A DNA stretch of 64,000 nucleotides from Falsirhodobacter halotolerans (GTDB lineage Bacteria > Pseudomonadota > Alphaproteobacteria > Rhodobacterales > Rhodobacteraceae). The notes beneath the pieces are model-generated. The model was not told the origin of the DNA and did no database searches. It worked only from the letters and a program-made list of their open reading frames with translations. The position numbers and the translations under genes were made by a program. This document shows positions 46,617 through 62,986 of this stretch, one piece after another (position 1 is the first letter of the stretch; the number at the start of each line of letters is the position of its first letter). The DNA lies in contig NZ_JALJAZ010000001.1 of NCBI RefSeq assembly GCF_022899245.1, forward strand, positions 1,023,501-1,087,500, given 5' to 3'.

Positions 46617-46642
46617 GGAACGACGTCCTGCCGCTTCGCGTT
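46617..46642 (+). promoter_or_regulatory. EcfG-type promoter of the YihY gene
   Basis: GGAAC (46617-46621) and CGTT (46639-46642) are 17 bases apart, just after the rplI terminator and 32 bases before the YihY ATG. GGAAC-N16/17-CGTT is the form recognised by the alphaproteobacterial general-stress sigma factor EcfG. Two other genes in this window have it. Confidence 0.65.
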
Positions 46643-46674
46643 CACACACAAATGTGACGAAAAGGGGACGCGGC

Positions 46675-47712
46675 ATGCAAAGATCACTCAAATCATGGAT
46701 GCTTCTTGGCGGCGGCGTTCTTGCCCTTTCATTGCTTCGACCGAACCGCAGCCAGACCGAAGTGACATCCCCATCGGCCACAGGCCACGATGCGACATCG
46801 CCGTTGGAAATCCCACGGGACGGGTGGTGGCAGATCGCGACCCGTGTGGCCGGGGCGGTAATGGAGGATCGGGTGATGGCCGTCGCGGCGGGTATGACAT
46901 TCTTCCTGCTTCTGGCCCTCGTCCCCTCGGTCACAGCTTTCGTATCGATCTATGGCTTGTTCGCCGACCGTGCGACGATCACCGATCATATCGCGTTGAT
47001 GGCACAGGTGCTGCCGGCAGATGCCCTTTCCATCGTGGCCGATCAGGTGACCCGGATCGCTTCGACCGATTCGACAACCATGACATTCGCGTCGATTTTC
47101 GCGCTTCTGGTCGCGATGTGGTCGGCCAATGGCGGTGTGAAGGCCATGATCGAGGCGCTGAATGTCGCGTATAATGAACGTGAGAAACGTTCCTTTTTCC
47201 TGCTGAACGTCATTTCCATGCTGATGATGTTCGCGGGGGTGGCCATCATTCTGACGATGATCGCCGTGGTCGCGATCCTACCCGCCGTTCTTGGTTATCT
47301 GTCGATCGAGACAGGAACGCCCCGCTCGTCGGCCCTGTTCATCCGCTGGCCGGTCATCTTTCTGGTGATGATGGTGTCTCTGGCCGGCCTGTATCGCTTT
47401 GGTCCCAGCCGGCACGCCGCACGCTGGCGCTGGATCAGCCCCGGTGCGATTTTTGCATCCTTGGCGCTGGTGGTCTTTTCGATGCTGTTTTCGGTCTATG
47501 CGTCGAACTTTGCCAATTTCAACGAAACCTATGGCTCGCTGGGCGCCATGATGGCTTTGTTGATGTGGCTGTGGTTGTCCTCCATCATCGTGCTGGTCGG
47601 TGCGGAGATCAATTCGGAAACCGAAAAGCAGACCGCGCATGACAGTACGACGGGCCCCGCTCGCCCTATGGGCGAGCGGCAGGCCTATGCCGCCGATACG
47701 GTCGTGGACTAG
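46675..47712 (+). CDS. YihY/BrkB family inner-membrane protein
   Basis: This 345-residue polytopic protein has the family start region [20 protein letters not shown], the [20 protein letters not shown] signature and six predicted helices. The end [28 protein letters not shown] is also typical. The N-terminus carries an extra hydrophobic segment ([15 protein letters not shown]) and a polar linker. The molecular function of the family is unsettled. The EcfG-type promoter suggests that it is a stress-induced membrane protein. It overlaps nrdF tail to tail by 4 bp. Confidence 0.87.
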
Positions 47713-48686
47713 AAATCCCAGTCCTCATCCTCGGTCGCGACCGCCTTGCCGATGACATAGGACGAGCCCGAACCCGAGAAAAAGTCGTGATTTTCGTCCG
47801 AATTGGGCGAGAGGGCTGCAAGAATGGCCGGGTTTACATCCGTGACCGACGCCGGGAACAACGCCTCGTATCCAAGGTTCATCAGCGCCTTGTTGGCGTT
47901 GTAGTGAAGGAACTTCTTCACATCCTCGGTCAGGCCGACACCGTCATACAGTTCCTCGGTATAGGCTTCCTCGATCTCATAAAGATCGAACATCAGGGCA
48001 AAGGCGAAATCCTTCACCGCCTGCCGTTCCGCCTCGCTCACCTTCTCCAGGGCGCGCTGCAGCTTATAGCCGATGTAGTAGCCGTGCACCGCTTCGTCGC
48101 GGATGATCAGCCGGATCAGATCGGCCGTGTTGGTCAGCTTGGCCCGGCTGGACCAGTGCATCGGCAGATAGAAGCCGGAATAGAACATGAAGGATTCAAG
48201 GAACACGCTGGCCACCTTGCGTCGCAGCGGATCATTGGCCTTGTATTCCGTCAGGATCAGGTTCGCCTTCTTTTGAAGGTGCGTGTTTTCCTCGGACCAG
48301 CGGAAGGCCTCGTCGATTTCCTGCGTCGAACACAGGGTCGAGAAGATCGAGGAATAGGACCGCGCGTGCACCGCCTCCATGAAGGCGATGTTGGTCAGCA
48401 CGGCCTCCTCATGCGGGGTGACGGCGTCGGGCATCATCGACACCGCACCGACCGAGGCCTGAACCGTATCCAGCATCGTCAGTCCGGTGAAAACCCGGAT
48501 GGTCAACTGACGCTCATGATCCGTCAGCGTCGCCCAGGACGGGATGTCGTTCGACAACGGCACCTTTTCCGGCAACCAGAAGTTGGAGGTCAGGCGGTTC
48601 CAGACCGTCAGATCCGTCTCGTCCTGCACACGGTTCCAGTTGACGGCGCGGGTCACCTGACGGCGGATGGGGCTTTGGGTGTTCAT
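47709..48686 (-). CDS. nrdF: Class Ib ribonucleotide reductase beta subunit
   Basis: The protein has 325 residues. The diiron/dimanganese ligands lie in helices containing [52 protein letters not shown] and [16 protein letters not shown]. Tyr in the HARSYSS region is the expected radical site. The size and the NrdHIEF gene set place it in class Ib (NrdF), normally Mn-loaded with NrdI. It is separated from nrdE by a 136-bp AT-rich spacer with regulatory sites, so it can be transcribed apart from nrdHIE. Confidence 0.94.
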
Positions 48687-48706
48687 TAGGTGCGTCCTGT
48701 AACACG

Positions 48707-48730
48707 AGGGCGAGCTTTAGAGCCCGCCCT
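48707..48730 (-). promoter_or_regulatory. Hairpin in the nrdF leader
   Basis: AGGGCGGGC-TCTAAA-GCTCGCCCT on the minus strand forms a 9-bp stem (one G-T pair) that ends 20 bases before the nrdF ATG. There is no T-run, so a role in translation or RNA stability is more likely than termination. Confidence 0.45.
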
Positions 48731-48787
48731 GAATCGCTTTGTCACAGTCTACCGCTCAAAATTTTATGAGGAAACCACTCATCCCTC

Positions 48788-62330: not shown

Positions 62331-62396
62331 GGCAATCTCCCGTATGCCCGTCCGGTTCTATCGCATCGGGCGGGGGGCGCAATGGAAACGGGTGGG

Positions 62397-62425
62397 TTGG
62401 ATTGCGGGGAAAAAGCCGCTAGACT
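62397..62425 (+). promoter_or_regulatory. Candidate promoter of the PACE transporter gene
   Basis: TTGGAT (62397-62402) and TAGACT (62420-62425) are 17 bases apart in the 160-bp nadE/PACE divergent region. Confidence 0.45.
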
Positions 62426-62490
62426 TTCGGTCGGAGGACGACCTTCGCATTCGGTTTCACCCGGGACGGCCCGGCCATATGGGAAACGCC

Positions 62491-62946
62491 ATGCGCACCG
62501 CTCCGGATCGTCTTCGCCACGCCATCAGTTTCGAGGTCATCGGCCTCATCCTCGTGATCCCGTTGGGGGCGATGGGGTTCGGGATCCATGCCGGCGATGT
62601 GGGGGTGATCGCGGTGGTGGGGGCGACGATCGCCACCTTCTGGAACTACGCCTTCAACCTGATGTTCGATCACGGCCTTTTGCGGATGCGCGGACGGCTG
62701 GACAAGCGCCTGAGTGAACGTGTCCTTCACGCGCTGCTGTTCGAGCTGGGCCTTCTGGTTGCGACGCTGCCGCTGATCGCATGGTATCTGTCCGTGAGCC
62801 TTATGGACGCGCTGATCCTGGATCTGGCTCTCGTCGTCTTCTATCTGGTCTATGCGTTCGTGTTCAATTGGGCCTATGACCGGATATTCCCCATCCCGAC
62901 GGATCCGGGGGCAATCCCCCCGCAACGCCCCGGCCTGTCGCAATGA
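62491..62946 (+). CDS. PACE-family efflux transporter
   Basis: This 151-residue protein has four helices in two repeats of the bacterial transmembrane pair. Each repeat opens with the pattern R-x-x-H-A-x-x-F-E (RLRHAISFEVIGLILVIPLG and SERVLHALLFELGLLVATLP). Each also carries a W/N-rich turn (TFWNYAFNLMFD; FVFNWAYDRIFP). The family (AceI-like) expels chlorhexidine and short diamines by proton antiport. An ATG at 62479 in frame is less likely. Confidence 0.88.
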   Translation: MRTAPDRLRHAISFEVIGLILVIPLGAMGFGIHAGDVGVIAVVGATIATFWNYAFNLMFDHGLLRMRGRLDKRLSERVLHALLFELGLLVATLPLIAWYLSVSLMDALILDLALVVFYLVYAFVFNWAYDRIFPIPTDPGAIPPQRPGLSQ

Positions 62947-62961
62947 CGTCAAAATAATATG

Positions 62962-62986
62962 GGAACTTATCCGCGTCGGCCGCGTT
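62962..62986 (+). promoter_or_regulatory. EcfG-type promoter of the DUF982 gene
   Basis: GGAAC (62962-62966) and CGTT (62983-62986) are 16 bases apart, 28 bases before the DUF982 ATG. The CGTT overlaps a 9-bp inverted repeat, GTCGGCCGC (62975-62983) with GCGGCCGAC (62989-62997). Confidence 0.62.

Follow-up and report, generated by a model that had tools for sequence, protein, structure and literature searches.

Organization of the locus

The window, that is, the whole stretch of 64,000 nucleotides that was analysed, corresponds to positions 1023501-1087500 of a 2.58-Mb contig of Falsirhodobacter halotolerans, whose genome (3.08 Mb) is assembled in three contigs. A scan of both strands for the strict motif GGAAC-N16/17-CGTT yielded exactly three matches in the window, each on the forward strand. 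The features around these sites are as follows.

45985-46569: rplI (ribosomal protein L9, by Pfam), the gene before yihY
46577-46604, forward strand: terminator-like hairpin after rplI (computed)
46617-46642, forward strand: predicted EcfG-type promoter of yihY, GGAAC-N17-CGTT (motif scan; recurs in the genus)
46675-47712, forward strand: yihY, BrkB/YihY family membrane protein (PF03631 / TIGR00765)
58714-60138: pntB (PNTB by Pfam), the gene before yohP
60144-60171, forward strand: terminator-like hairpin after pntB (computed)
60178-60203, forward strand: predicted EcfG-type promoter of yohP, GGAAC-N17-CGTT (motif scan; recurs before all 14 alphaproteobacterial yohP genes)
60226-60312, forward strand: yohP, 28-residue hydrophobic membrane peptide (PF25659)
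62962-62986, forward strand: predicted EcfG-type promoter of the DUF982 gene, GGAAC-N16-CGTT (motif scan; recurs in the two closest homologues)
63015-63257, forward strand: DUF982 protein of 80 residues (PF06169)

The distance from the end of the site to the ATG is 32 bases for yihY (ATG at 46675), 22 for yohP (60226) and 28 for the DUF982 gene (63015); an in-frame GTG for yihY lies 11 bases past the end of its site. The first two sites come right after the terminator-like hairpins, and the third starts 15 nt past the end of a gene of the chlorhexidine-efflux (BTP, PF05232) family (62329-62946), which adjoins the DUF982 promoter upstream. Terminators of the form AACGCCCC...GGGGCGTT are able to mimic the EcfG motif. 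YihY is an inner-membrane protein by family. The 28-residue peptide matches PF25659 over positions 1-28 of 28 with 33.4 bits against a curated cut-off of 27 (E 4.2e-8).

The first-pass annotation of this DNA had placed three such sites ahead of yihY, the gene of a 28-residue peptide and DUF982, at distances of 22-32 nt and with two of them directly after a terminator, and all of these were recovered where it had put them. It had left the small membrane peptide unnamed; the gene and the site before it are present as described, and the product is YohP. Its chance expectation of about one site in both strands of the window agrees with shuffled versions of the window, which gave a mean of 1.17 strict sites. 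Its conclusion that three sites are unlikely by chance does not hold on count, since 12 of 100 shuffles reached at least three; the number of sites is therefore weak evidence, and the case is carried by placement and conservation.

Placement of the motif in the genome

The strict motif occurs 61 times in the genome and a reversed-pattern control 60 times, so that a raw excess is absent and significance from raw motif counts was rejected. The placement of the sites is a different matter. With genes called by a small codon-usage gene finder, 35 of the 61 real sites lie within 120 bp before a start codon on the same strand compared with 5 of the 60 reversed ones (Fisher P 4e-9), and 43 of 61 are intergenic compared with 9 of 60 (Fisher P 4e-10). 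The median site-to-start distance among the 35 promoter-placed sites is 31 nt. Judged from the five control sites, chance may account for about five of the 35. Several plausible targets are missing from the 35: yihY, because the gene finder set its start at 46846; csbD and an AI-2E family gene, because the promoter region they share lies under an ORF of 30 codons that is apparently spurious; and topoisomerase IB, because its site runs into the preceding gene. At L028 and L073 starts also lie just 3' of the site, as judged by eye. By our own estimate, the genome would contain roughly 40 EcfG-type promoters. A spacer-length control on 225 kb of sequence from the same genome, not picked for the motif, contained one match with N16 and none with N17 where genome density predicts about 4-5; these are small numbers, tending against an even spread. 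The genome-wide scan proposed in the first pass thus found strongly promoter-like placement.

A Pfam scan covered 36 of the 39 listed target genes (all except those at L014, L025 and L066). The targets include an RpoH-type sigma-32 factor (NF005693), a second EcfG-like sigma factor, CsbD and four PRC-barrel proteins. Further targets encode DJ-1/PfpI, topoisomerase IB, a PNPOx-like protein, an AI-2E transporter, a transglycosylase-associated protein, a fasciclin protein, an OmpA protein with a glycine zipper, an NDH2-type oxidoreductase and a PLD protein, and others are atypical for stress (an Mfd-like helicase, an ABC transporter and a formate/nitrite transporter). Five target genes had no Pfam match at 0.001, and L030 had a weak match only. 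Short hydrophobic ORFs of about 21-54 residues, depending on the start chosen, follow EcfG sites at L025 1396-1494, L014 1329-1427 and L030 1304-1423 and are candidates for further stress micropeptides. Back-to-back EcfG sites are also found between csbD and the AI-2E family transporter gene at L062 2877-2930, near the phyR locus.

The sigma factor locus

The genome encodes an EcfG-class sigma factor, on whose presence the earlier reading had been made to depend, and the ecfG, phyR and nepR genes that were to be searched for are all present, together with a histidine kinase gene, at one locus (L062):

5601-7361, reverse strand: HisKA_2/HWE histidine kinase (PhyK model 222 bits, below the cut-off of 750)
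7358-7939, reverse strand: EcfG-class sigma factor (NF009198, 326.6 against a cut-off of 270)
7936-8055, reverse strand: nepR (NepR profile above cut-off)
8188-8997, forward strand: phyR, divergent (NF006623, 365.7 bits against a cut-off of 240)

The best PDB match of the sigma factor is 5uxx (3.3e-48), and PhyR matches 4qic, named PhyR, among nine PDB entries listed. The nepR-phyR intergenic region (8127-8158) carries two overlapping EcfG sites on opposite strands, which form a near-perfect inverted repeat. Of 19 other NepR loci scanned, 6 likewise have a pair of strict sites, one on each strand; with the own genome counted, 16 of 20 have a strict site upstream of nepR on one strand or the other. 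The NepR profile is matched in all seven genomes of the genus. In the family outside the genus (G007-G024), NepR is patchy, with matches in 9 of 18 genomes, eight of them above cut-off. A second EcfG-like sigma factor gene (L072 2036-2542; Sigma70_r2 and PhyR_sigma2 matches) has an EcfG site 28 nt upstream.

Conservation of the yihY and DUF982 sites

In the genus, a GGAAC-N17/18-GTT site precedes yihY in all seven genomes searched, and the strict form is kept in six (the own genome and five of six congeners); in the sixth congener, G002, the site ends in TGTT. In all seven the site lies 15-32 nt before an in-frame ATG and follows a hairpin-and-T stretch (by eye; computed for the window only), and the spacers have diverged, those of G001 and G004 being alike. 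Elsewhere in these loci the background of such sites is 0.03 per 300 bp. Outside the genus, a strict site was found in 1 of 22 YihY loci scanned, at -295, so the link to yihY is a genus-level one; in this upstream-site scan, positions are unsure for the short loci L213 and L219. A search for YihY relatives in viral contigs found none. For DUF982, the two closest homologues, in G005 (54%) and G001 (47%), have a site at the same -53, ending in GGTT and CGTT, respectively. In the other 13 of 15 DUF982 matches a site is absent at -53, and two have looser sites near -132.

Distribution of yohP and its predicted promoter in Alphaproteobacteria

Pairwise comparison of yohP among four genomes of the genus gave 6-9 synonymous against 1-3 non-synonymous codon differences, which points to purifying selection on the peptide. 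The gene lies beside pntB, with a strict site in each case, in three of the five congeners in which pntB was found (G002, G003 and G005). It is absent from the pntB neighbourhood, the region searched, in G004 and G006. In G003 (L254) the site preceding yohP, downstream of pntB, coincides with the pntB terminator hairpin and is therefore weaker evidence. No YohP was recognised beside pntB among 80 named PntB loci inspected by eye for short hydrophobic ORFs, or in 16 further pntB loci (L257-L272), and tblastn of plasmids with the 28-residue query, a weak one, found none.

Overall, YohP is rare in Alphaproteobacteria, being found in 7 of 289 sampled genomes, own included. It scored above cut-off in 5 of 18 genomes from the order of G117, and the order of G119, as sampled, has two genomes, both already in the set. 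The 14 yohP genes compared comprise eight loci of the 289-genome survey, three new ones from the order of G117 and three from congeners; G314/L296 was dropped, its YohP match being below cut-off and inside a 478-residue frame. These genes span seven genera and five families. The pattern was at first GGAA-N17-20-GTT and was narrowed after a first look to GGAAC-N17/18-GTT, with which the background was counted. The narrowed pattern occurs upstream of all 14 genes, starting 45-104 bp before the start (three lie far out, at -76, -97 and -104), and in strict form upstream of nine; the rest of the same loci contains 5 matches in 90,150 strand-bases, or 0.008 per 150 bp. The gene at L284 has a non-ATG start codon. 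Seven distant yohP loci viewed more widely by eye have differing neighbours. In G119 one yohP is 2.3 kb away from phyR, and in G229 the gene is 3.3 kb away from an EcfG-like sigma gene.

The PhyR/EcfG sigma2 profile is matched three to seven times, with the best match above cut-off, in all 13 yohP-bearing genomes, compared with zero to two matches in four NepR-negative members of the family taken as a contrast set. Ten yohP-bearing genomes were tested for NepR: seven have it (3 of 6 beyond the genus), and the profile search did not find it in G039, G119 and G227. There is thus strong comparative evidence that yohP of Alphaproteobacteria would be read by an EcfG-type sigma factor, with a reserve about PhyR in five yohP-bearing genomes (G039, G227, G319, G321 and G323), whose best sigma2 matches, at 57-78 bits and in frames of 199-240 aa, resemble sigma factors and not PhyR. 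Distant Alphaproteobacteria, too, appear to have yohP tied to the general stress response.

Alternative explanations

It is highly probable, judging from sequence comparison, that EcfG, the general-stress sigma factor, uses the three sites in the window as promoters. The EcfG form that the first-pass annotation had ascribed to them is supported by the sigma/nepR/phyR/kinase locus, by promoter placement across the genome and by recurrence in related species. So short a motif can arise without function in GC-rich DNA, above all in terminator stems like those given above; the shuffles, the equality of the raw genome count with the reversed control and the G003 site within a terminator hairpin are what chance matches would give. 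The excess of promoter-placed sites over the reversed control and the recurrence at all three genes of the window in relatives, with diverged spacers, speak so strongly against coincidence that it is very improbable as the explanation. That the sites are real ECF promoters but serve chiefly a different ECF sigma factor, such as the EcfG-like paralogue at L072, is unlikely but deserves more weight. The paralogue has the two domain matches and a site upstream of its own gene; against it, the motif is also found at the locus of the sigma gene linked to nepR and phyR. Paralogues may share promoters, so this explanation is compatible with control by EcfG, and the second sigma factor could read some of the sites.

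The first-pass annotation had also interpreted the three sites as a small local regulon, in which the genes would act together through their closeness. The sites do fall inside 16.4 kb, and yihY and pntB lie about 7-12 kb apart in four congeners (G002, G003, G005 and G006), with yohP there in three, but the closeness of yihY and yohP is what ordinary gene order in the genus gives. The three genes form separate units with other genes between them, and the density of sites is ordinary, as 15% of 64-kb segments of the main contig contain at least three of its 55 sites. Nor is the DUF982 gene kept nearby: its closest homologue, in G005, is on a different contig from yihY and yohP, and none was found in G002, G003 and G006. 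Distant yohP genes, moreover, have other neighbours. A local regulon is thus hardly credible. Promoter-placed sites are spread across the genome, and the three window genes very probably belong to a genome-wide general stress response, their promoters being three of about 40.

Proposed role and significance

Control by EcfG would follow the known scheme, in which PhyR, once phosphorylated under stress, binds NepR, the anti-sigma factor, so that EcfG is freed (PMC5830050). Freed EcfG would transcribe the approximately 40 promoters, mostly with short leaders, including those of yihY, yohP and the DUF982 gene; we infer binding of EcfG at the sites, the transcription starts and induction by stress. 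In the yohP branch, most likely, the small membrane peptide would be made when growth stops, by analogy with E. coli and Salmonella, and would then lower the membrane potential and push the cell to a low-metabolism, stress-tolerant state.

RpoS and EcfG belong to different classes of sigma factor, and general stress responses rely on different sigma factor classes in different proteobacterial classes. A shared YohP output would be notable for this reason, and we know of few outputs common to these responses. A single micropeptide seems to be connected to general-stress sigma factors of two different classes. A wider proposal, for which the probability is put somewhat below even, is that YohP is a shared general-stress output, placed under RpoS in Gammaproteobacteria and separately under EcfG wherever it is present in Alphaproteobacteria, where yohP and its EcfG promoter would form a compact unit at varied places in the genome, with membrane silencing at growth arrest in both classes. 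If true, a 28-residue peptide kept under both sigma classes would provide a clean handle on what general stress responses must always do, and this constant task is perhaps the lowering of membrane potential and metabolism.

In the literature searched, in which subscription papers are thinly covered, no report was found that ties EcfG or the general stress response of Alphaproteobacteria to yihY, yohP or DUF982, or, with the same incomplete coverage, that links EcfG to a small membrane protein. The window sites are very probably new members of a known regulon, and what may be novel is the YohP-EcfG link. The approximately 40 promoters constitute a concrete, testable list for a system of debated role in relatives of Rhodobacter, and easily overlooked micropeptides are suggested members of that list.

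Comparison with known systems

In Sphingomonas melonis (PMC6599016) the EcfG motif is GGAAC-N17-20-GTT, mostly within 100 bp of starts, and genes for PRC-barrel proteins, topoisomerase IB and general stress protein 26 are among those under EcfG control. The present system is alike in its GGAAC-type motif, in its distance from starts and in its overlapping target types. Rhodobacter sphaeroides has, in RSP_1271-1274, a similar arrangement of kinase, sigma, NepR-like and phyR genes, with the kinase and sigma genes beside the NepR-like gene and phyR divergent; the authors of that work assign PhyR a membrane-stress rather than a general role (PMC5830050). The membrane products predicted here would fit such a role.

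YohP of E. coli is reported to increase on minimal medium and in stationary phase (PMC12719787). When E. coli made the peptide early, from a plasmid, the membrane potential fell, cardiolipin rose and the stringent response was triggered, an effect termed "metabolic silencing", and the same paper notes homologues beyond Gammaproteobacteria. In Salmonella, tagged YohP was nearly undetectable without rpoS and is thus RpoS-dependent (PMC5437024). The peptide described here resembles these proteins as a hydrophobic membrane peptide of 27-28 residues with a full-length PF25659 match and in its link to stationary phase or general stress (PMC12719787, PMC7549839, PMC5437024), and may by inference act as they do. 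It differs in that Salmonella YohP is under RpoS (PMC5437024), whereas the alphaproteobacterial genes have a predicted EcfG-type promoter and other gene neighbourhoods.
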